This document shows positions 1-63,563 of a DNA stretch of 64,000 bases, piece by piece. Within the stretch, counting starts at the first letter, position 1. Each line of letters starts with the position of its first letter. A program made the translations under genes and the position numbers. Source of the DNA: Ceratothoa steindachneri. Taxonomy: Eukaryota; Arthropoda; Malacostraca; Isopoda; Cymothoidae. Under the pieces are notes generated by a model. It ran no database searches and was not told where the DNA came from. It saw only the letters and a program-made list of their open reading frames with translations. Where the stretch lies: the NCBI GenBank assembly GCA_963969495.1, contig OZ018327.1, positions 38,052,720 to 38,116,719 on the forward strand. Direction: 5' to 3'.

Positions 1-42
1 TTTATACTAGCAATACTTGTATAACATTATGTCAAAACAAGC

Positions 43-327
43 ATGCCCGCCCGTCAAAAATGTAGCACTGTTAGGTCTCTTAGAGCTAGGTTCTTTTCTC
101 ATATGGGGATTAGTTGGCGCACAAACAAAATATTAAATAAAAAGGAAAAGTCATCTATTAGGGAACACACCATAAGCTGTAAAACTGACATTTATATTGA
201 GGATTTTCCAGTATTAGCCTTTAACAACAACAAACATTGCCTAAGAACCCTCGAATCTTTATATATCAAACACTACAAACCTACACTCAATGAAGATTTA
301 AGGGCAATATCATTATTAATTAACTAA
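43..327 (+). pseudogene. Penelope-like element, GIY-YIG-type C-terminal fragment
   Basis: A 94-codon open stretch that resembles the C-terminal GIY-YIG endonuclease region of Penelope-like retroelements. It carries a basic segment, then SSIREH, a cysteine-containing stretch, and LRTLESLYIKHYKPTLN near the end, which matches the conserved tail of that domain as I know it. The reverse transcriptase part would lie upstream of the window, so this is only the 3' end of a copy. The ATG at the start is internal to the domain and is probably not a real initiator. PLEs insert by target-primed reverse transcription, and GIY-YIG nicks the target. The family call is inference from motif order; it is weaker than the copy at 1140-2800. 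Confidence 0.55.
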
Positions 328-870
328 TTCTAACTACAGTTTGTTAGTTGGTTTGCTTTTCAACAAACCAAGCGTCACTATAACCTATAAATACTGGCCC
401 CTTGGTAAACCCACCATTCACTCTCTAGGATGGATCCACTTTAGTAAGTACCAAAATTTACCGTTTTTATATTAAATGTTTTTTAACTCTTACAGTCTTT
501 ACAAAATTAAAAACAAAGTTTAAATTTAATATCTTTAAATAATGCCAGGTCAATTTCTTTTATAGTTTTTAATTAATTTCTGCAATAAACCTTAAATTTA
601 TTAACTAATTTTTGAGTCAGTTTTAAAGCAAATTTAACTGTTACCAAGTCATATTTAATAACAAAAAATTTAACTCATAGTACATTTTACTGATATTTTA
701 TAATTGGTCACTATTTAAAATAATTTTTTGTTGGCACTTTCAAGTTTTCTTCAGATGTATTAACTTTGTAAACTTTTTCTAGCCTGAAGATGAAAACTTG
801 TAGTTTTTGAAACGTAGTGAAAAATTAAAAGATGCTGCATCCGTTTATCGTGGCTCTGGGATTTATCCTC

Positions 871-874: not shown

Positions 875-915
<41 letters not shown>
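875..915. repeat. (TA)n microsatellite
   Basis: About 20 uninterrupted TA units following the presumed PLE 3' flank. Confidence 0.95.
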
Positions 916-917
<2 letters not shown>

Positions 918-929
918 CTGAAGAACTCA

Positions 930-1060
930 ATATCGAGTTATGGTATATGATAGTGAAACCACTGTATAGGAGCATAGAATTTAATTGCGAAACTAGTTTC
1001 GGTTGAAGTTTACCATACCTTCTTCAGTCATATACTGAGACTGAAATGAACAACATAAGT
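930..1060 (-). repeat. Dispersed repeat R, copy 1 (PLE-associated)
   Basis: A roughly 120-bp sequence that recurs in inverted form at 46640-46915. Shared blocks include TGATAGTGAAACCACTGTAT and TAGGAGCAT. Read on the minus strand it lies just 3' of the GIY-YIG part of the PLE at 1140-2800, so it is probably that family's 3' untranslated or terminal repeat. It contains a decayed hammerhead-like motif. Confidence 0.7.
986..1032 (-). ncRNA. Decayed hammerhead-ribozyme-like motif
   Basis: On the minus strand: CTGAAGA (1027-1021, fits CUGANGA), a weakened stem II, GAAA (1000-997), a minimal stem III C-TA-G, and a GUU triplet, which fits NUH. Stem I is reduced to about 3 bp and one stem II arm has lost a base relative to the copy at 46.8 kb. 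Probably inactive. PLEs are known to carry minimal hammerhead motifs. Confidence 0.45.
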
Positions 1061-1139
1061 TATTAAATATCTCAAAATCCCAGCCCCCCTCCCCCGGAGA
1101 AAAAGGGTCATTAATTAAGAGGTGTGGTTCTAAGATCAT

Positions 1140-2800
1140 TAACTAAACTTTATAATCAGGTTCTGGGAATAGGAGCTACATTTAAATTGACCATCCAAAA
1201 GATTAAAATCGGGAATTTCTTCTATTAGTATCAATTCTACAATTTTTCTTTTACGGAAATCTTTACAATTATATATAATTTGGGGCTTTGGATAATCTAG
1301 TTGATGGTTTTAATTGCTAATATGGTTAAAAATACGGGATGTTGTACTTCCTCGCCTGACATCACCTTTGTTTTCGTATATCCGTTTTTGTTTAATGTTC
1401 TCCCAGTCTCTCCTATGTAGAATGAGGGACAGTTAGTGGATCCACACGGAATTGCATATACGCCCTCCTCATTTGGCTGATCCTTGTGCTTGGTCGAAGT
1501 GAAAGATTTAAGGATGGAAAAAGGGTATTTAAACGAGGCTCGACCTGGAGAAATAACTGTTTACTCCTTCGAGGAGGGAAGAGAACGGGAGGGATAGACA
1601 ATTCATGTTTCTTACTTTGTTTTTATCCTTGGGACGGTAGTTTGTAGAGTTAGCTTAAGATAAACTCTCATTGATGATGTGGAGAGGATAATTTAATTCA
1701 ATGAATCCTCTGGTTATATATGTAATCTCGTTTTCTAGAAAGCAAGAATCACATATTCTAAGTGCTCTCAAAAACATACTTGATGCAACGGCTTTTTTAA
1801 TATTAACATCATAATGTGAAAAGAAATGGATATAAGAGTTAGAATGAGTCGGTTTACGGTACATAGTGAACCTAATTTGATCAAAGACTTACAATTTTAA
1901 CATCGAGAAAGGCTATACAATTATCTTTTTCCCCTTCTACCTTAAAATTGATGGTGGGATGGAGGTGGTTAAGATTTTTGAGGAAATCGTCGAATGAATT
2001 TAAACTTTTTATAGGCCAAATCGATATGACATCATCTACATACCTAAACCATACAAAGTTTGATGCGGAATAACAGAAGGGAGTAAATTAACTTCAAAAT
2101 GTTCCATAAAAAGGTTACATAATATGGGCGATAAGGGATTTCCTATGATAAGACCGTATTTCTGACGAAAGAAACCCATTTCAACAATAAATACATTGTC
2201 ACTAACATACAGTTTTACAAGATTTCTAATTTTTATTTTTGCTTCGAGGGAGGTTTAATATCGGATTATCTAATACCTTAGATATAACATCAAGGGATTC
2301 ATTAACTGGAACATTGACGAACAGGCTATCTACATCAAAGCTAACTAAGCGGCTACCTTCTATGTTGATTTTTCTCAATTTTTCAAGGAAATCAGAGGAA
2401 TGGATTATGTGTGAAAGAGAGGTCAATCAAACGGCGTTAGCAAGAAGGGAGGCTAACTACTTCGAGAATTTGTATGCATGAGAGTCAATACACGATATAA
2501 TAGGTCGGAGTGGCGTCCCTCTTTTGTGGGTTTTCGGCATACCATACATACGGGGCAGTGATAGGTTGGTAGGTTTAAAACGACGTAAAAGGTCTGGGTT
2601 GGATCATTGTTGAAGATCTCAATTTTATTATTCAATGGATTGGAAGATAATTTATCATAAATCCTGTCATTTATCCGTATAAGAATTTTTGTCTAACAGA
2701 ACAATTTGGTTAGTTTTATCGGATTTTGTTAACACAATATTTTTGTTAGAATTAAGTAATTTTATTAGTCTCAAAACTATTAGCTATAACTGTACATCTC
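1140..2800 (-). pseudogene. Penelope-like element: reverse transcriptase plus GIY-YIG endonuclease
   Basis: Reading leftward on the minus strand, fragments in shifting frames give an ordered PLE protein. N-terminal: NIVLTKSDKTNQIVLLDK (around 2750-2700). Then the segment with TQTFYVVLNLPTYHCPV near 2580, and SRLVSFDVDSLFVNVPV, the A motif region, near 2340. Next GNPLSPILCNLFMEHFEV near 2110, and the catalytic box YVDD at 2042-2031. After that comes VYRKPTHSNSYIHFFSHYD near 1850. The GIY-YIG domain follows: GVYAIPC (about 1463-1445) and FYIGETG (about 1425-1409). At least four frameshifts and several stops make it a dead copy. Motif order is exactly that of GIY-YIG-bearing PLEs. The repeat at 930-1060 is its likely 3' end. 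Confidence 0.85.
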
Positions 2801-23687: not shown

Positions 23688-24795
23688 CTAGAGCTCGTGT
23701 TCGAGATGACCTCTATTTAGCTCTGTGCATTTCTTGAGGCGCAGCACAAAGTTGTCCATGACGTCCTTACAAACCGACCGACTAATGGCTCTGATCTCCT
23801 CCCTGGTGGCTTCCTTGAGTTCCGTGATTGTTTTGGATCTCCCTGCATACACTCTGTCTTTAAGGTAGCCCCAGACAAAGACATCTGTGGGGCTAAGGTC
23901 TGGGCTGTAAGGTGCCCACTCAAAATCAGTCTTGAGACTCATCAGACGGCCACCAAAGTTCTCTTTCAGCATATCTCGAGACAGGTTTGCGGTGTGAGAG
24001 CTTCCTCCATCTTTATAGAACCAGAAGCTCCCCATAAGAGACGGAAACATGGTCTGCAGCTCCCTCTTGAAGGTTCTGAGGACCTCAACATACCGCTCTT
24101 TGGTGACTGCCACTGTCGCGACAGATTCCTCGAAGAAGAATGGTCCGATGATGCCTCTGGCTGAGATTGCAGTCCATACCGTGCAGTTAGGGGAGTGTAG
24201 GGGCTTGATAGCTACCTCATTTGGGCTGGAGGTCTCCTAGAAGACATTTGTCTTCGAGTTTACCTTTCCTTTAAGATGGAAGTGAGCTTAATCTGAGGTC
24301 CAAAGGAGGTTAAGGAAAGTTGGGGTCTTCTGAATCTTCTCCAGTATCTTGACTGCCATAGCCTTTCTCTGCTCCTTATCTGGGGCTATAATGATCTGCT
24401 TCTTATGTATGGTAGACATTTACATCGATAAATAGCAATATACTACAAGTCTCATGAGATATACCGAGGGAGTGACTTCGCTTGCACACAGAGCGTTTTG
24501 GACTCTGCTGAACTGACTCTCTCACGCTCTCGACCAGCTCAGCTATACGCTTCCTGGGGCGTCCTGAGTGGCTTGGATGGTTGTCACTGGCTGTATTGAC
24601 GTTCTCCACTTTCTCATAGTTCTCGAAGTCGTCCACCCATTCCTGAATTCTGCTCTTGGAGGGGGCTTTTTTACATTCGAACTGATGCACGAAAGTGTCC
24701 TGCACTTTCTTCAACGAGCCTGTCTTATAGTAATGTTTGACGCAGTATATTCTTTGCTGGAGCTCCCGTTGAGGTCTAGTTGTATTCACAGGCAT
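23688..24795 (-). pseudogene. Mariner-superfamily transposase with DUF4817-like N-terminus (DD41D-type)
   Basis: Two long minus-strand frames, 24795-24403 and 24113-23688, joined by a readable middle. The N-terminus has IYCVKHYYKTGSLKKVQDTF and SKSRIQEWVDDFENYEKVEN, then SHSGRPRKR and a second helix-turn-helix. The first catalytic Asp is in LLWTSD followed by a stop and AHFHLKGKVNSKTNVF (about 24305-24255). The second is YKDGGSSHTA, and the third SPDLSPTDVFVWGYLKDRVY. I count 41 residues between the second and third Asp, so DD41D spacing. A second copy of this family lies at 36880-37561. One stop and one frameshift separate it from an intact frame; Q in QDG is replaced by K. Confidence 0.85.
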
Positions 24796-25143
24796 TGCTT
24801 CTGTTATGTCCTGAAAAGTAAGGGTGATTAGTGAATGAATGAAGGATATATCACAAAAAAGTGTGAAGTAGTTTCAAATGAAACAACTTCATTTTTTTTG
24901 TCGAGTTGGTTCCTTAAAAAATTGAATCTTTTTGCCACCTTACTCTCTACTTAATATCCCTTGAATTTTGCCTACATTTTATCTTCATCCTGGCTATATA
25001 ATTAGTGCTATTCGAGGTCAGAAGCCCTTCTTAATTTCGATCTCTCATCTCTAACATCTCTGAAGAAGGGTCTTTTCTTAGGTCCAAAATCTTATAAATT
25101 AAAATCGGAGAAGCTCAGTTGTGCGTATTTTACTCTTAACATA
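24796..25143. other. No recognisable feature
   Basis: Spacer between two transposon relics. I looked for the inverted terminus of the 23688-24795 element here and could not find a convincing one. Confidence 0.4.
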
Positions 25144-36880: not shown

Positions 36881-37561
36881 TGCTCCATTAAAGCCCATAG
36901 GTAATTAAGTAAACTAAAAGAAGTGTAAATCCTCGAATAATTCAAAAGCGTGAGCTGCCTCCACTGAAAGCGAATCTGTGGTGTGGTTTTTGGGCAGGTG
37001 GATTGCTTGTACCGTTCTTCTTTGAAGATAATGGGGGCGGGGGATGCAGTTTTAATTAATGAAGAACGTTACCGAGACATGATATCAACTCAGTTATGGC
37101 CGAACTTGGAAGATACGAAGATTGACAACCTCTGGCTTCAGCAGGATGGAACGACCTGCCACACTTCGCGCCAAGTACTTGCATTACTCGAAGAAAAATT
37201 TCCGCAACGAGTGATATCCTTGCATGGTGACCAGGAATGCAATCTTACCCCTTGTGATTTCTTCTTATGGAAGTATGTGCAATCACAGGTATACGCCAAC
37301 AAATCACGCACAATTCCTGAACTCAAGGCTGAAATCAGGCGTGAGACGGGAGGCATTGAGCCACACATCTGTGAGAGAGTTATCAGAAATTTCGAGGAGC
37401 GGGTAAATGTAAGCAGACTGAGTGCAGGTGGCCACAATATGGTCGACATTGTGTTCCATACCTAAACAGGAGAAATAACTCATTAGAAATATGGAGAATA
37501 TAACCAGGTTTATATTTTTTTTCATTTAGCTTTCAAATTCAGCGCCCTTTATGGAACATCC
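36880..37561 (+). pseudogene. DD41D-type mariner-superfamily transposase, C-terminal half, with 3' inverted repeat
   Basis: Plus strand: NPRIIQKRELPPLKANLWCG and FWAGGLLVPFFFEDNGG (about 36927-37040), a frameshift near 37045, then NEERYRDMISTQLWPNLED. The second catalytic box is LQQDGTTCHTSRQVLALLEE (about 37135-37195), and the third NLTPCDFFLWKYVQSQVY (about 37240-37295). A deletion of about five residues before NLTPCD shortens the spacing from 41. The C-terminus ends at 37465. The 3' inverted repeat GCGCCCTTTATGGAACATCC ends at 37561 next to TA. The 5' part is missing. Confidence 0.8.
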
Positions 37562-44545: not shown

Positions 44546-46630
44546 CATCGGACGGGAACGTATTGAAACCCTTTTCACTCTTACTCTGGCCTTCTCAGAT
44601 TTACCAATGAAGGTGGAGGACAGGCATGGAAAGAAATAAGAAAGTAAAGGATCAGGTAGCAATTTTAGTAAATGGGGATTAAAGGAACTATCCTAACAAA
44701 CACCAACCCCCAAAGGAAGAGTTATCGCCCAAAAGGCAGATGCCGCGTTGGATTTGTGACGTTGAGGCGCGGCTTCAATCCAAGTGAAAGCGGACACAAG
44801 ACTTTCAGCTGCGTCATTAGCCGGTCACCCACTGGGCGGATACGCTGATACCTTTTGCCGGGTTGAGTACCTCTACATGTATCCTGCACAAATATATTGA
44901 TAACACCGCTATCATTTCCCTTGTCGCCTTCACAGCACAACATACCAACTCCCTCCTTCCTTCCGGAACCCTCCCGATTGGGTACTACTCTCCCCTATGG
45001 GGATATTTATATCCACGTACCCAAGACGCGGATTAGGGGCCAACTCCCAAGGTCACGAAAGATTCAACCCCCTCAATCATGACCACCCCCTGGCAACTTC
45101 GGGCTATTCAGCTTTCGTCATGCTTATCTTTATTCACATTTCATTATCCGGTTTGGGGATCTCGTCTCCCATGCAAGGGATAGATGGCGCTATCTACCGG
45201 CATAACTACACCCATAACAGGCGCCGAGGGTATTTAAAGCTTTTAGTATTAACTTTGAGCAGAATATATATGCAACTTTGCTCCTCGCCCCGTAGGGCGC
45301 TGTGTGCACTAATTCTATAAACCTTCCTCCACCCCAAAAAATTCTTTCCTGTTTTTATTAATTCCTAAAATTGCCACCAGAAAGCACCTAAATTCAATTA
45401 AATTGCAAATTCTTGTATATTTATAAATACGACTGTCCAGAGGATCTGCTAGTCTCTCTTGATCACTGGTTCCTCTATTCCTATGATCTCACAAAGATCC
45501 CAATAATATTAATTAAGATAATTCACGAATGTTTATTAAAGTCCAATAAATTCTAGAGACTCTGTTTGGTCCCTTTTGGGTTGCAATAACGCAAATTTCA
45601 TCCCTTCTTAAGTATTTCTACGTTCGTGGCTTCTCCTCCTTTCCCTTTCCATAAAATGGAAAGGGCCTTAACATAGACTTATGGAACATTCTATTTCTCC
45701 ATAAGTTTTGCAGTTTAAAAATTTAGCATTTAATATTTTCGTAACTTGTCTAGGTATCTCTCTGCTTCTCTCTCGCTTGATTTTTCACTCTCCCTCACTC
45801 TCTTTCTCTCTCTCCGCTGGCCTGGAATTCGTCCGGCGGTCGCAATATCCGTCCTTTGCCTGAAAGCCGTCAAGCACCCCGTCTGGTGCGTGTCGGCCCG
45901 AAACGAGTAAACAATACCTCGAGTTTTTGTCTTCCGTTTTTCTCCCTCTCGCCTAATGGAAGAGTCAGCTTTTAATTATCTAAAATATCATATATATACA
46001 TATAAACCTCACTCTCTACGTTTTATCCCATACATCGATATGCATTTGTACGTATGTGTAGTGGGTATGAACGCGCGTAGTGTTTAGTGTGTGTTTGCCT
46101 GTTAATACCAAGCCGAAGGTAATTAAACGAGAGAGGACCAACGCTACCTAAAGGAGGCATGGTTAATTGGAGAACTTTTAATAAAAATAGCATCCAGACA
46201 CTTTAGAAATTATGTTATAAACTAGAACAAATAACAACTTCAATGTATTAGTTGTTCTGATTTCATAGGAGTACTAATGCCAAGTGGTTTAAGGAAAAAT
46301 CATCTTTTCTGTAAAGTTAACTTAAACTGGTTGAATCATGATTTAAGAAAGTTCAGGAAGACGAAGTAGAGTCGAAAGTCAGTATATTCTCAAGTTTTAT
46401 ACCATAACCCCAAACAAAACATTGACTGGAACAATTTAGTGTAGTAGAATCAATCCATTTTAATGCTATTTTTATCTGGTTTTGTCTCTGGCTAAAGGTT
46501 CTTGAGAGTTGTAATTCGGTGACGTCATATTGAAGAATCAGTCGATGCCCTTAAATAGTACTCTTATATACGCCCTATAATCTCCTAATACGTCTTTTTC
46601 CTTAATAAATTTATTAAATAATGGAGTAGG
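44546..46630. other. No recognisable gene
   Basis: Moderately GC-rich from 44.6 to 45.3 kb with short open stretches on both strands (for example minus 44943-44722), none recognisable. A CT-rich run sits at 45740-45820. Confidence 0.35.
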
Positions 46631-46639
46631 TTTCATAGA

Positions 46640-46915
46640 CCTGATAGTGAAACCACTGTATAGGAGCATAAAATGTATTTACGAGACTAGTTTCGGTATG
46701 AACAAAAGGTCATTGATAACGGGCTGTGGTTATGACCTTTTGCTCCCTTCTTTTTCTTTTGTCCTGATCTTGAGGCTGTGTAGCGACACTTGTATCTATT
46801 CAATTCCCAGTATACGACTGAAGAGGTTATGGTAAACTTCATACCGAAACTAGTCTCGTAAGTTTTATGCTCCTATACAGCGATTTCACTGTCATATACC
46901 ATAACTCTCTATTGA
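46640..46915. repeat. Inverted repeat made of two copies of repeat R
   Basis: Left arm 46645-46700 (GATAGTGAAACCACTGTATA through ACTAGTTTCGGTATGAA) and right arm 46838-46905 (its reverse complement, with few mismatches) are separated by about 138 bp. The right-hand copy extends further and carries the best hammerhead-like fold; the left-hand copy has only its 3' half. Related to the PLE-adjacent copy at 930-1060. Confidence 0.8.
46813..46860 (+). ncRNA. Minimal hammerhead-ribozyme-like motif
   Basis: Read 5' to 3': stem I strand TACGA (46813-46817), CTGAAGA (46818-46824, fits CUGANGA), then stem II GGTTATG / CATACC (one bulged base) with loop GTAAACTT. GAAA follows at 46846-46849. Minimal stem III is C-TA-G (46850-46853), then U-C (46854-46855) giving a GUC cleavage triplet, and stem I strand TCGTA (46856-46860), fully complementary to TACGA. 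All core elements are present in order with compensating stems. PLEs are known to carry such minimal hammerheads with very short stem III. Activity is not shown. Confidence 0.65.
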
Positions 46916-47359
46916 ATTATTACACTTATTTCATAGACCTACCTCTTTTATGTTTCTTCAATTGCAGTGGATGCAACATATTAGGTCCTGAAGGTTTGAT
47001 CAGATTATATCTCATTGTAGAAAAGTACCTGTTTATATGAGTGTTCTTTTTGCTTGATATTATTTTAGGCTGGTCGCGAATCTTGTCCCAGATTAATCTT
47101 TTCGTTCATCGTTCTTATTAAAGGTCGTTAAAGATTTACGGTACGTAATGGTATCGCAAATTTCTGACTTTGTCCGATCGTTTATTATGTGATCGATTTA
47201 TGTTACACTGGTTTCAGGGTCTTGGCCGTTAACCTAGTTTTTTTTTTACTTCTTCCAACAGTAAATTCTTTCAATTAATGTCTACTTAATTTGGCATTTC
47301 AGTGGGCTTGCTTGTATCCGATATTACTTAATTTGATTAATTGATTCTTTTTATTTCAT
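46916..47359. other. No recognisable feature
   Basis: AT-rich spacer before the mariner-type element. Confidence 0.4.
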
Positions 47360-51989: not shown

Positions 51990-54160
51990 TAGTAAATCGA
52001 AGAAACTCGATTTGAAAAGAGCAGACTTTGCAGGTCTTCGTGCTGGACTGACTGACGCGAGGCTAGAAGTGTGCGATGTTGTTGAAGACTCTTTGAACAG
52101 TTTCAAAACCACATTCATGAGTCTTCAATCGCGTTTCATCCCTCTGAAATGTCCCCGTCGGTCTTCTTTTCAACCAAAGTGGTTTAATCAAGAAATCAGC
52201 CAACTGCTTAGGAAGAAGAGAACTGTGTACCGGTAATCGAAGATCTCGGGTGACTTTAACGAATACCGGAGGCTAGCCAGGAGAGTGAAGTCCAGCATAA
52301 GGGCGGCTAAGCGGTCTGAGGAACTCCAAGTGGCGAGACTCTGTAAAGAGAATCCCAAGGAGTTTTTTGGATATGCGAACAGCCGTAAACCAATCCGTCA
52401 AACGATTGGCCCTTTGAGAAATAAGGAGGGGGCATTAAAGCACTTAGATGCAGAAAATGCTAACCTCCTCAACGACTACTTCTCTTCAGTGTTTACTGAA
52501 GAGTGTGGTCTCATCCCCCAGCCAATGGATTCCTACTCGGGGAAAAAGCTGGAGGATATGGACTTCACCGAAGGGGAAATCAAAAAGAAGATCAGTGACC
52601 TAATGACGAATAAGTCACCTGGCCCGGATGAATTTCTACCTAAAGTGTTAAAAGGAGTGCGCGATCAAGTGTCACGACACCTGAGCGCAATTTTTAACAC
52701 GTCAATCCCGGCCGAATGCGTTCCTAGAAAATGGCGTGAAGCGAAGGGGACTCCTATCTTCAAGAAAGAAGCCTGAAGCCAACCGTCGAACTACCGACCT
52801 ATCAGTCTGACTTCGATAGTCGGCAAACTCATGGAAAGCATGATGGTGGACAAAATGACGTCGTATTTAGAGTCAAACCTGCTACTGAGGAGTTCCCAGC
52901 ACGGCTTCCGAAGGCAACGGTCATGCCTGACGAACCTTGTGAAATTCTTCCACTTCGTTTTCAGTGAGCACGATCGGGACAAGGCGGTGGATGTGGTGTA
53001 CTTAGACTTTCAGAAAGCCTTTGATACGGTACCACACCGCAGCCTTCTCCGGAAAGTGCGAGCGCTGGGCATAGACGGAAAAGTAGCCGGCTGGATCGAG
53101 AACTGGCAAAGTGGCAGACGGCAACGGGTGGTGGTAAATGGACAGGCTTCTAAGTGGGTGCCCGTTACTAGCGGGGTGCCTCAAGGTTCTGTCCTGGGAC
53201 CACTACTATTCATCATCTACGTCAACGACATGGACGGTGACATAGTTGCGAAGATTTCCAAATTTGCCGACGATACCAAGCTTGGTATGAACGTTGCAAA
53301 GGATGGAAATACTGCCCGCCTGCATGGAGATCTTGGAAAGATTGGGGAGTGGTCGGACACGTGGCAAATGCCTTTTAACGTGAAAAAATGCAAAGTGATG
53401 CATATCGGCCACAGGACTCCCCCAATCTCAGTATATCCTTAAGGGCACTGCTCTTGAATCGAGTGACACTGAGAAGGACTTAGGTGTAACAATCACTAGT
53501 GACCTCAAGTTCTCGAAACAGTGCATTGAGGCGGAGAAAAAGGCCCAAAGGATGCTAGGCTATATTAAGCGCCAGTTTGGTTATCGGAACCAGGAGATTG
53601 TACTGTGCCTGTAAAACTCACTTGTCCGACCGCACCTGGAGTATGCCGTACAATTTTGGATCCTTCATTGCGAAAGGACATCGCGAGATTGGAACGCGTA
53701 CAAGCCAGGGCAACCAAGCTGATTCCCTCTATCCGACATGAAAGTTATGAGGATAGACTAAGGGAGTTAGATCTGTTCTCGCTGGAAACCCGTAGACTGC
53801 GTGGTCAGCTCATCGAAGTCTTCAAAATACTTCGAGGGTTCGACAATGTTGACTACCGGGATATTTACACACTCAGTGAGAACAGAACGCGCAATCACGG
53901 CTTCAAACTTGAACTGAAGCGTTACAACCGCAATCTGTGTGGAAACTTTTTCACTTACAGTATCTGCGGTAAGTGGAACGCACTTCCAGTGGAAGTTGTC
54001 AACAGTGAATCTGTTGACCAGTTCAAGTCAAGACTAGACAAAGTCTTGAAAAGTGGCCGTTTAGGGACGCAAAACAATTGAGCAGCCTTGTGCCCGCTCG
54101 ATTGTTAGTCCAAAGGTACCCTCTTTAAATGGACCGTAAGGTCTCTTAGGGTACTTACAT
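51990..54160 (+). pseudogene. CR1-clade LINE, 5'-truncated ORF2 (RT to C-terminus)
   Basis: The best CR1 copy. One frame runs 52012-53442 with two in-frame stops (52234-52236, 52774-52776), then a frameshift near 53430 and return to the first frame near 53660; it closes with TGA after 54081. Order: linker after the endonuclease (PKWFNQEISQLLRKKR), ENPKEFFGYANSRKP, NKSPGPDEFLPKVL, SNYRPISLTSIVGKLME, QHGFRRQRSCLTNLV. Then the catalytic motifs VYLDFQKAFDTVPH, GVPQGSVLGPLLFIIYVND and KFADDTKLG (FADD at 53263-53274). The tail has RPHLEYAVQFW, RRLRGQLIEVFKILRGF, NRTRNHGFKLELKRYN and FTYSICGKWNALPVEVV, typical of CR1. The endonuclease is missing. The 3' end is near 54160. Confidence 0.92.
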
Positions 54161-56831: not shown

Positions 56832-57099
56832 TTTTTTTTTTTTTTTTCAAGGGGCTATCTGGCGACTGCCCATTTGGGCATAAGTCGCTGCAAACAAACA
56901 GTTTAGTTCAAAGCTACTTTAATATAAAATTTGAAAACTAAACAACCATAAAAGAGAAGATGACAATTAGGAAGCAAGCTCCGGCGTCGAGGGAAGTCCC
57001 CCTCCCCCCGGCGTAGGAACGTGAGACCTACAAGTAAAACAACTATAAAAAACCCCCGACAAAACCTAGGTAAATAAAGGAGAGAAGGCCAACCCCCCC

Positions 57100-60000
57100 C
57101 CCAAAGTCTATCAGTCCACCAGTCAAGGTGCATTCACTCGTCCTGAGTACAAGGGACAAACAATAGCGACCCCGCCCATCACGGTACCGGAACATGTAAC
57201 GTGCTCGAAGATCACCCAGACTGGGACATTCGACACAATAGGGCGCAGGCGAGCGCTCCATCAAATAGCGATGCGTCACACGAGTGTGTCCGATTCGGAG
57301 ACGACAGAAAGCGACCTGAAGCTGTCGCAGCATTGTGGGATAGGTCCATGGGAACAGTCACGGCGCAATGGCACGCAACGTTAAGTTCCCTTCGACCGTC
57401 TCCCATCTTCTTTGCCAAGCAGTCCGAAGAGCTGCCCGTATTCCTGCCATGTAGTCGGTGTGAGAAGGAGCGAAACGCTTGTTCGGTCGCAGAGTCCTCG
57501 CAGACTCTTTGGCACCCTCATCGGCGCGCTCATTCTCCGCAATTCCTACATGTCCAGAAACCCAGCAGAAGATAATCTCGACGTCCACCCGGTTCGCCAA
57601 AACCGTAGCGTCATGGATATCGCGAACCAGGGGATGCGGAGATTCCAATGCCCCAAGAGCACTCAGAGCGCTTTGTGAGTCGCTACAGATCACAATCCGG
57701 TCTCCGAACCGGGCACGTCGCGTAATTTCCCGTACCAAGTCGTGTATTGCTACCAGCTCGGCCGTGAAGACAGACGCAGCTCCTGGCATATCCCCGCTGA
57801 CTTCAAACAGAGGTGATACTGCGTGGAAGACGACCCCCTCTTTGGACTTGGAGCCATCCGTATACACTGGCACGGTACCAGTGTGACACGAGATGTGCTC
57901 CATAAAGGTCGAACGCAATACTTCCAGTGCTGTACAAGCTTTGGGAGCAGAGGCGTAGCGACAAATAGCCAAATATGGTACCCTCCAGGGTGGCGTCCTG
58001 GGCAGAACCAGGGGCGCCAACGGCCCGAGAGCTATATCTACCTCTCGAAGGAGTTTCCTGGCCCTAAATCCAAAGGGCTTAGGTTATGAGTGTCGTCTCT
58101 CGGCTGCATAGGCACCGTTAAAATCCGCTGCGAATGCAGTGAGAGCTGCTGGCGAATGAGAGAGGCGCCGAGCTCGCAAGTACAGGCGAATAATGCACTG
58201 TAGACGACGTAGAACGAGTGGCATCTCCCCAGCATCCACTAGTAGGCTCTCAATGGGGAAAGTGCGGAAGGCACCGGTCGCAAGGCGAAGGCCGGTGTAG
58301 TGGATCGAGTCCACCTTCCGCAATAAATGCTCGGCTGCGGATGCATTAAACTCGCATCCGTAGTCGAGCTTCGAACGAACAAAAGGACGATAGAAGAGTA
58401 AGGCAGTAGCCCTATCAGCGCCCCAAGCGCTGAACGTCACGGAACGGAGAATATCCATGGCGCGGGTATATGAGACGCTAAGGCTGCGAATATGAGCCTC
58501 CCAGGTGAAGCGTCGGTCGAATACAAGACCAAGGAAACGGTGCAATTCAACTATTTTCAGGCTCACCCCATTAAAAAACAAATCTGGGTCGATGTGGAGC
58601 CGTGGATAGCGGCAGAAGTGCACCACTTTAGTCTTGGCCAAAGAAAACTGAAACCTGTGCGCTTTGGCATAGCGAGAGTCGACGCTCCAGAGTTGGCATC
58701 TGGGCCACTCCAAATGAGATCCAAAGGTCGTCCACGTCGAGCGTAGCGAGAACATCTTTCGGCAGCACCGAGGTGATGCCGTTGATGCTCAGGGCAAAGA
58801 CTGTGACACTGAGGACACTTCCCTGCGGGACACCCTCTTTCTGCTCCTTTGGGCCGGAGAGAGCTCCCCCACCCGTACGCGGAATCGAAGATCTCGCGAA
58901 AATTCAGATATAAAGACCGGGAGTCGTCCCTTCGCCCCCATCGTGTGGAGAGTCTCCATGATACCGTATCGCCATGCGGTTTCATAGGCCTTCTCCAGAT
59001 CAAAAAACACCGTGGCGTAGTGCTGTCTACGAAGGAAGGCATTGCAGACGGCATTTTCCAGTCGGAGCAGATCATCCGACGTGGCCTCCGCTGTCGAGGA
59101 AAAACGCTAATCTAACATTTACCAATTTCTCCTTTAACTTGCACACGCAAAAAGTTAGAAAGATCCTGCGGAAATCGGCCGGAGTAGAGTGATCTCTCCC
59201 CGGTTTGCGAAAGGCGAGCACAGTAGCGGTCGCCAGGAATCTGGAAGGAGACACTCCACCCAGATCCTGTTGAACAAATCTAACAGAAAGGCCATGCCTC
59301 GCTCACCCAGGTTTCTAAGCATGGCGTACGGGACATCCTCCGGACCATGGGTGGTGTCTGCGCACGAAGCAAGAGCGGAGCGCAACTCACTCACAGTAAA
59401 CTTGTCGTTGAAGGGTTTTCCACCTCTGTAGGTAAAGTCCATCCGGCGGCCTTCTGCGACATCACGACGTGCATTGAATACTAGCGGAGCAGCATCCCGG
59501 CTAGAGAATGCGGAGGTTGCGGTCCCATTATCCTGGAGAACGGGAGGGGGGTCCTGCGAGAACTTGCCCCGAATCCTTTTGACTCGCTTCCACACCTCTG
59601 CCAGAGGGGTCTTCCTGTTAAGTGAAGACTCGTATGCCCGCCAAGAAGAGCGTTGGGCGTGCTTCTAAATATAGCGGAATCTAGCCCTAGCCCGACGAAA
59701 TTCACCGACAGTCAAATCGTTCTGGCGGCTCTTATAGGTATAACGCTTCTGTTTGAGGGCCATCTCACACTCGGCCGACCACCATAGGAGTGGTCGGCGT
59801 GCAAAACGGCCAGAAGTTTGGGGAAAAGTAGTCAGGCAGGCGGCAATGAGGTTGCCGGAGAAGAAATCAACGGCCTCATCTACCGATCTAAACTCCTCGA
59901 CTGAGATAGATAATTAAGTCATTTCCTGAAATTCAGGCCATCGCGCCCGCAAGAACCACTGAGGTGGGCTCTCATGCGGCAGTTGCCCTGAAAATGATAT

Positions 60001-60640
60001 TTGAATGGAAAAGTGATCACTACCATGAAGGTCATCGACCGCCCCCCAATCAAAATCAGGCTGTGCATCCAAAGAGCACAAAGATAGATCAAGGCAAGAG
60101 AAGGAAGCGGTTCTTCGGCATTGATGCGTAAACTTATCCACATTTAGGACACCTATCTCAAGCTCTTCGATCAGATAAGCAAGGACTTGTCTCCTGGGAT
60201 TTATTGAGTAATCTCCCAAGAGAGGATGCCTACCGTTCAGATCTCCAAGCAAGAGAAAGGGCTTTGGCAACCGTGCCACCACGCGGCGGAAGTCCCACGC
60301 GTCGAAGTCAGCTGACGGTGGAATGTACGCAGAAATGATAGTATACCTCCTATCCAGGTGAAGCTGCACAGCGGCTGCCTGAAAGGAGGTATTTAAAGTG
60401 AAAGAAAGAACTGAGACATCATGCCGGGTGTAAACCGCGCATCCCCCAGCCAAGCCATCTCGTGGTGGTGGAGTCGCAAGACCCTTATCCCCGGGAGGGC
60501 GGGCAGGGGGCACGCACCTAGCATGGTCTCCTGCAGAAAGATAGCTAACGGGGAACGGAACGAGACGAACCTCCGTAGCTGCTCCCAGTTGGCCCGGAGT
60601 CCACGGCAATTCCATTGAAGGAATATGCCATCCAGGCCTA
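57100..60640 (-). pseudogene. ORF2 (endonuclease-RT-RNase H) of the I-clade element
   Basis: Domains on the minus strand. AP endonuclease: FLQWNCRGLRANWEQLRR (about 60622-60569) with LQET, a frameshift, then ISAYIPPSADFDAWD, LLLGDLNGRHPLLGD and LHGSDHFSI (about 60035-60000). RT: THGPEDVPYAMLRNLGE, VFFDLEKAYETAWRYG (about 59015-58965), and the palm box, now DVDD instead of YVDD (58739-58728). Thumb: KVVHFCR, HRFLGLVFDRRFTW. RNase H: VYTDGSKSK, FTAELVAIHDLV, ICSDSQSAL, ENERADEGAKESA (57858-57470), with all four acidic positions present. The C-terminal piece has RLRIGHTRVTHRYLM and PYCVEC. At least five frameshifts/stops plus the Y-to-D change. Confidence 0.92.
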
Positions 60641-60739
60641 GCTCGGAGGAGACGCGGGGGCCCTCTTCGAACAGAAGACCCTCACGGGAATGGTTGTACG
60701 CTTCCTGGAGGAGGAACCCCTGGCGCTGTTGGCCTAACT

Positions 60740-62923
60740 AAGCGCTGAAGGCGCTGTCGCCTTCGAGGACTTATTGGGGGAGGTTGGGCTCGCCATGCGA
60801 GTATTTTCCTCCCTCCACCTTGAACCTTAGGCGGGCGTTGCGGCTTCAAAGGGCGGGGGCCCTCTTTTCGAGGAACCACCATCTCCGAGCCACTTAGGCG
60901 TGGATGAAGGAGCCGAAGCTCCTTTGTTGCTGTTCTCCTTTCGGGGGATAGCTTTAGGACCCCCAAAAGATGGCCTGGCGACTAACTTCAGGGGTGTTGA
61001 CTCCTGTGAGTCCAACGACTCGGTGGAGGCGTGTGGCCGTTTTGCCTTACGGGAAACGGTTACGCTAGGGGAAGGGGGGGGAGCCATGGTTTCAGCCGGG
61101 GCTGGGTGTGAACCCTTTTTGCCGCCAGCTTTACCAGGGGAGCGCCCGGGTTAAGTAGAACCTGCAGAAAGGCTCCGAATGGGCGTGGAAACAACCGTGC
61201 TCGTTGGCCTGGATAGGCCATGAGCAGAGGGTGCCTTTCTAACTATTGAGGCGTAAGACGTCCCAGGCAGAGCTGGGCGCACCAGGACTAAGTCCTTAGC
61301 CTCGTGGAATGAAAGTCGATCCTGGGCCTGAACGGCCAGGATTTCTTTCTCAAGGAGATATGCACCACATTGCTTCGATGAAGCGGGGTGCGGCTCTCCG
61401 CAATTGACACACATGGCCACACACGATTTAGACTTATCGTCTGCAGCCTTGGAGCAATTTACTCAAAATTCGGGTCACCCCGACTTTGCACGTCTACGAT
61501 TCGTATGGCCGAAGCGGTGACAGTAATAGCACCGCCGCGGCAGTGGAACGAATACCTTTACGCGGTAGCGGTACCAACCGGCACGTACTGACTCACGGAG
61601 CTTGTCACAGTCGAACGTGACTAAGAGTGTAGGGGTGTGTCTCGAGGCCCTTCGCTGTTTTCTCATCACACGTTCGACCTTGACCACCTCATGGTCGGCC
61701 AGCTCTAAGGTGATGTCCTCAATGGAGTAGTCAACGAGTTCCCTCAGATAAACTACTTGTTTCACAAAGTTCATGGTAGAGTGGGCGTCACACTCACCGG
61801 GGTGCCATCAAGTGTCCGAAGAGCACTTATCTGCCGCATTCGCCAGAAGGCTCCCGTCCGAGGAACGGGACACTTTCGGCTCTCTACCAATTACACTAGT
61901 TAATGCTTTCCTCTGATGCATCATGTTGCCCTTGGCCAACATGCTGCCATCAGTGGAGCAAATAACGAGGAAGCGTTTAAAGCTTTCGGGCTCGAAAACG
62001 CCAGGTAACCTCTGAATGAGGGGTCCCGATGTTATCAATGCTCCGCCCTGCGCACTTTTAGTCTTAGTCGGGGGCTCCGCACCCGTGGGGGTAGAGGGGC
62101 CGGATGTACCGACCTTGGCTTGGTCGCTTACCGTAGCAGCAGACCCATCCGCCCTCACAGCCCCCGCGGATGGAGAGGAGCCCCGAGTCTTCTTAGTCTT
62201 TTTCCCGTTCTTTTTCTTTTTTGGAGAGGAGGGCGGGGAATGAACCCGCTTCTCACCTCCACCGGCAGGAGCCCCCAGGCCAGATGGACCGGAATCAGCT
62301 AGGTCCTTTTCCGAAATGGAGAAGGTCCTGGCAGTCGTAGGGGCACCGGTCGGAGATCCCTCCCCTCCTTGTACTGCCTCAGAAACCCTAGCGGTTTGAG
62401 GAGGACCTTGCATAGGGGCGGATTCGTGTTCGGTGCTTAGCGCCGAGCCCGGATTGCCCCCCATGGAAGGGCCTACCGTCTGAGGCTGGGTTGCCTCAAG
62501 GACCATGTCTATCTCAGGAGGGGCCTCCAGTTGGCTATCCCCTCCCAGGACATCGCAGGTCCCGTTGGCAGCACCACCAGTCATGTGTGGGGAGGCACAG
62601 GCTTTGACCCCGGCCAGTTTCAATATTCTTGCCAGCAGGTCTTTTGAGGGAAGCGACCGAAGGGGCCTATCTTTCCTCTCCTCCCTAAGGGGGTTTGGCC
62701 TTCCGAGCCGCTTCACTGAGAGCGGTTGGCTATTAGCTGCCTGCTGGCTTTCTTGGCAGTCCCCTTGGAAAGAAAAGGGGGGACTGCCGCTAGAACAAGT
62801 AGAGGTGCCCGAAAGCACCTCTAGAGAATGGGGTGAGGGGGAGTCCTCTACAACCGTAGGCGAAGGAGAGGAGTAAGCCTCCTCTACGGTTAGAGAAATA
62901 TGGAGGGTCCCCTGCGCAAGCAC
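60740..62923 (-). pseudogene. ORF1 (gag-like) of the I-clade element
   Basis: ATG at 62923 opens a 371-codon frame. It has a low-complexity N-terminal half, a basic nuclear-signal-like cluster PKKKKNGKKTKKTRG (about 62228-62185) and FKRFLVICSTDGSMLAKGN. It ends at a premature stop at 61808-61810. Two frameshifts later the RNA-binding part continues (61774-61475): ELVDYSIEDITLELADHEVV, TPTLLVTFDCDKL, and the knuckle CYYCHRFGHTNRR with its last Cys in the next frame. The second knuckle is CVNCGEPHPASSKQC (about 61411-61370). A Ser/Pro-rich tail reaches about 60740. Would bind element RNA in the RNP; now broken. Confidence 0.88.
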
Positions 62924-63563
62924 ATAAGGGGACCTTAATTATTTCTGTGGAGCTGCCCGAGGGCGGGCTCCGTCGTTGGTACAGACGGAATTAAGGTGAT
63001 TTGATTGACTGATCATTGGGCATGGTGACCCTCTTTTTATTACGGGATGCAATAGCTCATCACCCCTCGCAGTAGCCTGCTCTGCAAGGGGTGCGTATGG
63101 TCTTGGCAGAGCCAGGTGCCACCATTTAAGGCCCCTCCTCCTGCCTGGTGACCTGGCAGCCCTTCAGCATGGCGGCTCTACCTTGGCCACGGCGTAAAAT
63201 CAAGGATAAATGGTGAAGTGAGAAGGAAAAGAGATGTAAGGAAGGTATGGGTTGCGATGAAGCAGATTGTTAAAAAAACACCATTCCGAACCGGAGCTCA
63301 GGGGTTAGGGAACGTTGTCCCCTTCCCCCTCAGACCCCATCCGGGACGGTTCGCTGAGAAGAACGTCAGCATCTACCCTGTAAAATTACAGGCTGACCAG
63401 AGAAACTTGTGGGAGAGGTTGTATGAAAAGCGAGGAAACCGGGGGGGGGGGGGGGAAACAAGTGTTTTGAAGGAAGGAGAAGAGGCTAAGTTTGGATTGG
63501 ACGGGATGCTGAATCCCGTCAGCACGGCGGCCAGGATGGCAAATCCCCGCGCTCCTTACGTGG
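62924..63563 (-). promoter_or_regulatory. 5' untranslated region of the I-clade element
   Basis: About 640 bp between the upstream target duplication and the ORF1 start. Contains a C homopolymer on the minus strand (12 G at about 63440-63452 on plus). An internal promoter would be expected here, but no specific motif was identified. The open plus-strand frame across it (63218-63646) is a shadow joined to CR1. Confidence 0.6.

Follow-up and report, generated by a model that had tools for sequence, protein, structure and literature searches.

A probable minimal type I hammerhead in the 3′ UTR of a Penelope-like retroelement family of the isopod Ceratothoa steindachneri

Introduction

The question was what a hammerhead-like motif at 46813-46860 represents in a window of 64,000 nucleotides (contig OZ018327.1, positions 38,052,720 to 38,116,719) from the genome of Ceratothoa steindachneri: to which element it belongs, and what part cleavage plays in the life of that element. 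Minimal type I hammerheads have been described in Penelope-like elements (PLEs) (Cervera and de la Pena 2014; Lunse, Weinberg and Breaker 2017, as cited in the available parts of PMC7761336 and PMC6466107). In a literature search that stopped short of these two defining papers, PLE hammerheads of the present host were not met, and no priority is claimed.

Results

Sequence, rarity and model scores of the motif

46813..46860, plus strand: minimal type I hammerhead motif with core, both stems and one-pair stem III (covariance model, 75.9 bits)

On the plus strand the motif reads, in order, TACGA, CTGAAGA, GGTTATG..CATACC, GAAA, C-TA-G, (G)TC and TCGTA, with the predicted cleavage position after GUC, between 46855 and 46856. 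Core order, stems and triplet are as described in the original prediction, and a structural descriptor and a covariance model agree with it. The proposed stem II is present, but not as a plain 6-bp stem: one base is bulged or, equivalently, left unpaired after A9. Run over the 64 kb, the descriptor (stem I of at least 3 bp) matched at 46813-46860 alone, and 0.0075 sites with a stem I of at least 5 bp were expected per window by chance (400 first-order Markov windows). The covariance model, built from relatives of the motif with both window copies included, scored 75.9 bits here and 54.2 bits at a second copy (986-1032, minus strand); the only remaining match in the window (957-1004, plus strand) scored 12.1 bits (E 0.61). 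It had also been suggested that Infernal be run with the Rfam hammerhead models; with Rfam 15 this was negative, no family being matched in the whole window at gathering thresholds or in 46790-46890 at E up to 10, and no hammerhead was among the Rfam matches in loci L001-L010. We attribute the silence on 46813-46860 to the missing helix III. The motif is confirmed as real; it had been rightly recognised in the main point, with errors in details.

Assignment to a Penelope-like element

986..1032, minus strand: second hammerhead copy, partly decayed (covariance model, 54.2 bits)
915..1141, minus strand: 3′ UTR of a PLE, ribozyme followed by tail hairpin, with an (AT)n run at the border
1142..2783, minus strand: decayed, 5′-truncated PLE coding region with RT and GIY-YIG pieces in several frames (collinear protein alignment)
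25..327, plus strand: C-terminal piece of an endonuclease from a different, very abundant PLE family, to which the ribozyme at 986-1032 does not belong

The second copy is missed by the descriptor because one stem II base is lost, the triplet is GUU and stem I is reduced to 3 contiguous pairs. Upstream of it on the minus strand, the inter-stop pieces of 1142-2783 were collinear with residues 231-777 of the unnamed protein P0059 (789 aa; PF00078, PF28514, PF26215) and with residues 23-513 of a second unnamed protein, P0053 (598 aa; PF00078, PF28514, PF01541, PF26215). PF00078 is RVT_1 and PF01541 is GIY-YIG; since RT and GIY-YIG are thus united in one protein, the minus-strand element related to P0053 is a PLE. 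A Pfam scan of the short decayed pieces gave no RT or GIY-YIG match, and the combination of both domains in one ORF is found for this element through the collinearity of its pieces with P0059 and P0053. The GIY-YIG domain that belongs with 986-1032 is decayed and lies at about 1142-1560 on the minus strand. That 986-1032 is a related, decayed copy just 3′ of a PLE GIY-YIG domain therefore held, while the domain itself had been misread as the one at 25-327 on the plus strand. The plus-strand GIY-YIG family was rejected as the owner of the ribozyme, as the 3′ UTR profile of the motif's own family (family A) matched none of 29 other loci of the plus-strand family (L032-L060, 1.5 kb either side of each, E up to 1e-3).

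That the motif belongs to a PLE, as had been proposed, was borne out by 20 other copies of the minus-strand element, for each of which 220 bp beyond the coding match were searched: the ribozyme/3′ UTR profile matched in 18/20, and the match spanned the ribozyme positions in 14/20, the matches in L066 and L080 having large internal gaps. In most of 30 loci the unit consisted of the end of the coding region, a T-rich stretch, the ribozyme and about 50 nt, ending near TATCAT(AT) or about 35 nt further on, followed in many loci by (TA)n.

PLE coding sequence thus precedes this 3′ UTR both in the window and in the majority of the 20 sampled copies, which argues against a non-autonomous retrozyme, that is, a small element of tandem hammerhead repeats moved as circular RNA, rather than a part of a PLE. 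Ribozyme-bearing short insertions that lack coding sequence, among them the 286-bp one described below, speak for a retrozyme, but a direct tandem copy was present in none of 30 loci, and the one-pair stem III differs from the canonical form given for retrozymes in the available part of PMC7229834; we regard this reading as very unlikely.

Other mobile elements were seen in the window. A Jockey-like non-LTR retroelement occupies 57043-62938 (minus strand) in several open pieces, and its RNase H piece has its nearest named protein in a porcelain crab (41%). Named relatives of a neighbouring retroelement ORF, which are not the best-scoring matches, come from porcelain crab, spiders, horseshoe crab and scorpion. 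By eye, transposase-like pieces were noted at 23688-24873 (minus strand) and 36968-37465 (plus strand), and another LINE at 52237-54081 (plus strand).

Anatomy of the insertion that carries the motif

46631..46642, no strand: left target site duplication TTTCATAGACCT, the same 12-mer flanking the insertion on both sides
46643..46703, minus strand: inverted left arm, a partial inverted copy of the PLE 3′ UTR (L002 3′ UTR match)
46732..46928, plus strand: forward part, a 5′-truncated PLE 3′ UTR (pLTR-like) ending in a tail (alignment of 30 loci)
46897..46928, plus strand: PLE-type tail of about 32 nt with weakened hairpin (alignment of 30 loci)
46929..46940, no strand: right target site duplication TTTCATAGACCT, identical to 46631-46642

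The motif at 46813-46860 lies in an insertion of 286 bp (46643-46928) between 12-bp direct repeats; on the plus strand of the window this 12-mer occurs twice only, both times bordering the insertion. Target duplication was checked for this insertion only. With 5′ truncation, inverted left arm, tail and target duplication, the anatomy is of PLE type. The forward part (46732-46928) was matched at 76-87% by the best other genomic copies. The 3′ UTR of L002 aligned with the inverted arm of L001 over 61 bp at 96.7% identity, and the arm extends through the ribozyme cleavage site into loop II. A third half-copy of the motif, reported at 46645-46700, was a misreading of this arm (46643-46703) of the same insertion. 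Upstream inverted arms were present in 9/30 loci; L010 has a tenth inverted copy on the downstream side, a member of a second family (family B, below).

In the predicted fold of a transcript of 46630-46915, all bases of 46838-46860 were paired with the left arm. Since it is the 3′ half of the ribozyme that would pair with the inverted arm, the motif is probably silent in a transcript of the whole insertion, and on this model the copy at 46813 is probably a short, dead insertion whose motif is complete on paper.

Tail hairpins were folded for twelve hand-chosen copies, three of which gave no better than -1.1 kcal/mol. The window tail (46897-46928) reached -0.6 kcal/mol, other family A tails -3.7 to -6.0 kcal/mol (n = 3) or 0.0 kcal/mol (n = 1), and the tail of the minus-strand 3′ UTR (915-947) -3.9 kcal/mol. 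Pairing was AACTC..GAGTT in family A and up to TTTACTC..GAGTAAA in family B. By analogy with the Anolis PLE, the tail hairpin at the end of the insertions (46897-46928, plus strand; 915-947, minus strand) may mark the start of reverse transcription.

Conservation and covariation in two families

It had been expected that genomic copies of the repeat would keep the core and show compensatory changes in the stems; the outcome was mixed, negative within family A and positive between families. A first look at the 3.93 Gb genome gave 1,836 candidate relatives of the repeat, 40 of which were scored; such candidate numbers, here and below, are first-look search numbers and not confirmed copies, and counts obtained with protein queries should not be compared with those obtained with DNA queries. 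Among 51 family A copies spanning the motif, the whole core (CTGANGA, GAAA and NUH together) was found in at least 17, and the core with a stem I of at least 4 bp and the C-G pair in at least 10, both being lower bounds because a few rows were misparsed by the script (e.g. L018, L066). NUH was kept in 47/51 copies and ACTAGT in 36/51. Mean identity was 0.923 in the core and 0.922 in the flanks (62 matches), so that the core showed no extra conservation, and selection on it was not seen within family A. Covariation was assessed on 44 rows, seven of the 51 having been dropped as their core could not be placed; on five measures the shuffles were as high in 44 to 217 of 500, none of the measures being clearly above them.

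Family B (20 copies, L085-L104, fetched out of 1,186 first-look candidates; a further copy at L010:1761-1808, minus strand) resembles family A from the ribozyme onwards, and the sequences upstream look unrelated. From the shared ribozyme, the stretch that follows it and the tail, we infer that family B is a PLE as well. Stem I is AACGG..CCGTT in family B vs TACGA..TCGTA in family A, and stem II is GATATG..CATATC vs GGTATG..CATACC; core and ACUAGU palindrome are kept, and three stem pairs have changed on both sides. The complete core was present in 13/20 family B copies and NUH in 20/20; the outermost stem I pair was lost in 8/20. When both families were combined (64 rows), 46 cells were changed on both sides vs 16.8 in shuffles (0/500 as high), and slid controls gave at most 8 cells. 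The number of pairs with two-sided change (4 vs a shuffle mean of 4.4) was not above the shuffles, and further pair types were fewer than in the shuffles (12 vs 13.6). Compensatory support for the stems was thus found on three A/B pairs and is essentially one split, that between the families. RNAalifold alone recovered stem II only.

That repetitive DNA merely came to resemble a hammerhead by chance is very unlikely in view of the 0.0075 motifs expected per window, of the second family with its compensatory changes and of PLEs as known carriers. The equal conservation of flanks and core in family A would agree with such a resemblance, since a fortuitous motif of a master copy would give the same picture there.

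Folding and the double-hammerhead model

Helix III of the motif is a single pair, for which reason the ribozyme would work poorly alone. Its loop and neighbouring bases form the palindrome ACUAGU, so that two copies could share a helix III. As a monomer, the motif had a minimum-energy fold that was not a hammerhead, and 30% of the sampled folds had 4 or more stem I pairs. In two-strand folding of a family B sequence (L098 and L088, identical over the motif), the double hammerhead was the unconstrained minimum (-24.0 kcal/mol), as expected for those published PLE hammerheads which cleave as dimers. For three family A copies, the window's included, the double hammerhead was 3.8 to 4.8 kcal/mol less stable than the dimer minimum.

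According to the available part of PMC6466107, in which Lunse et al. 2017 are cited for PLEs, dimers of this kind require that loop III be palindromic and that the copies be arranged in tandem. None of 30 loci had a further copy in direct orientation within 1.5 kb; an ORF-spanning pair would lie further apart. The partner would consequently have to come from the far pLTR of a full element or from a separate transcript. Full-length copies with a ribozyme on both sides of the ORF were found in none of 11 (3 + 8) upstream stretches, among which much of L112 reads N.

On these sequence comparisons and fold models, the motif is very likely a PLE family's minimal type I hammerhead, set in the 3′ UTR or pseudo-LTR between stop codon and tail, where two copies would join through ACUAGU into a double hammerhead that would cut after GUC and so process the transcripts of the element. 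It is a fresh example of a kind already known from PLEs and not a new kind.

A remnant motif in the plus-strand family

784..818, plus strand: hammerhead-like remnant of the family at 25-327, with CTGAAGA, stem II and GAAA (triplet GUG; by eye no stem I)

The PLE family represented by 25-327 gave 26,395 first-look candidates for the 100-aa endonuclease piece, 150 of which were scored. Several of its matches were paired in inverted arrangement, one on the minus and one on the plus strand at a distance of 1-4 kb (loci L031-L060). By eye, L050 (289-1764) holds a 492-aa open frame in which the endonucleases of two different PLE families are joined across an (AT)n repeat. A related motif, GCCTGAAGATGAAAAC..GTTTTCGAAACGTWGTG or near it, was found in 23/30 loci of the family (among them L033, L035-L046, L048 and L050), with GUG in place of NUH in 22 and GGG in one (L056), and by eye without stem I. 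The stem II of this remnant, GAAAAC..GTTTTC, is unlike those of families A and B, yet still pairing. The cleavage triplet of hammerheads follows the NUH rule; because GUG and GGG break it, the motif of this family should not cut, and it may be a ribozyme on its way out.

Genomic copies and the cleavage site

The ends of genomic copies were compared with the predicted cleavage site in 40 copies (36 newly fetched, 4 from earlier sets), picked solely for their match to the 78 nt that follow the site; they are the copies most similar to the query and not a random sample. Homology extended upstream of the site in 37/40. In 16/40 its limit lay between -57 and +7 relative to the site, one (L117) at the site itself, two 4 and 7 nt short of it and 13 at 11 to 57 nt beyond; 6/40 ended 70 to 126 nt beyond, some perhaps at alignment limits in the variable T-rich stretch, and 18/40 reached at least 161 nt upstream. 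All nine upstream inverted arms (9/9) also began 5′ of the cleavage position, and in L011 an internal gap spans the site. With one of 40 limits at the site and 37/40 copies extending upstream, cleavage-defined 5′ ends of the insertions were not seen in this sample. Because the 37/40 copies and the 9/9 inverted arms reach 5′ of the site, the sampled copies appear to come mostly from RNA that was not cut there, and they speak against the simple idea that cleavage at the site sets the 5′ end of an insertion. The 5′ limits were denser over the ribozyme, with 16/40 within 64 nt (0.0076 vs 0.0029 per nt in the next 103 nt), a rate ratio of 2.6 with P about 0.03 if the limits are taken at face value.

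A less likely reading is that the motif is a fossil or that its RNA structure was kept for another use, e.g. in binding of the element's protein or in priming, with cleavage no part of the life cycle. The copies and inverted arms that reach past the site fit such a reading, as does the family at 25-327, which keeps the core yet has GUG (22) or GGG (1) in 23/30 loci; an Anolis PLE whose hammerhead was mutated was likewise unaffected in insertion in vitro, according to the available part of PMC11167929. A mere protein-binding hairpin, however, would need neither NUH nor stem I compensation nor the palindrome, and all three are kept: NUH in two families (47/51; 20/20), stem I by compensation, and ACUAGU as well. 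A hammerhead that processes the element's transcripts is the reading we prefer.

Beside the forward copy, an inverted match was present in 9/36 newly fetched loci. By eye, several head-to-head junctions fall on symmetric parts of the ribozyme. That of L116 is perfectly palindromic around ACTAGT, the helix III palindrome of the ribozyme, and others lie, by eye, in stem II (L134) and around TATACGACTGAAGA (L119, L137 and L143).

Discussion

The motif shares with the PLE-associated minimal hammerheads its type I form, its short stems, the near absence of helix III and the location in a PLE pseudo-LTR (PMC7761336 and PMC6466107, available parts), and a loop III palindrome suited to a double hammerhead (PMC6466107, available part). 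It differs from published PLE hammerheads in that none of 30 loci showed a tandem partner for dimerisation in cis within 1.5 kb, and in that 9/30 loci carry an upstream inverted arm that could mask the ribozyme.

Likenesses to individual elements can be drawn from the parts of the respective papers at hand. Poseidon PAc of Anolis carolinensis also has a pLTR hammerhead, an optional tail that ends the insertions and a stem-loop at the start of reverse transcription (PMC11167929); its ORF starts within the ribozyme, and its cleavage needs the protein of the element (PMC11167929), whereas the motif of the present family was located downstream of the ORF. A 5′ copy of the ribozyme as in Poseidon PAc was not found here, the sampled copies being 5′-truncated. 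Penelope elements of Adineta vaga resemble the present ones in a 5′ inverted pLTR shorter than the direct one, an optional tail (31 bp), target duplications and palindromes at inverted junctions (PMC3846280), and differ in a target duplication of 8-10 bp vs 12 bp here; no ribozyme is mentioned for them in the available part of that paper (PMC3846280). Metazoan retrozymes are similar in having a type I hammerhead within a short repeated element, but they consist of monomers of 170-400 bp repeated head to tail, with the hammerhead in canonical form (PMC7229834, available part), whereas no tandem monomers were seen here and PLE coding sequence is linked.

The inverted matches with palindromic junctions, together with the denser 5′ limits over the ribozyme, suggest a further idea, which we hold to be improbable but worth stating: ACUAGU might do double duty, in dimerisation of the hammerhead and, as DNA, in fold-back priming of the inverted left arm. 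If this were true, the ribozyme region would shape both the RNA processing and the inverted-repeat architecture of the element. Many copies, at least two motif-bearing families and an abundant PLE family without the cleavage triplet make this genome naturally suited to the question of which is kept: cleavage, dimerisation or the DNA palindrome.
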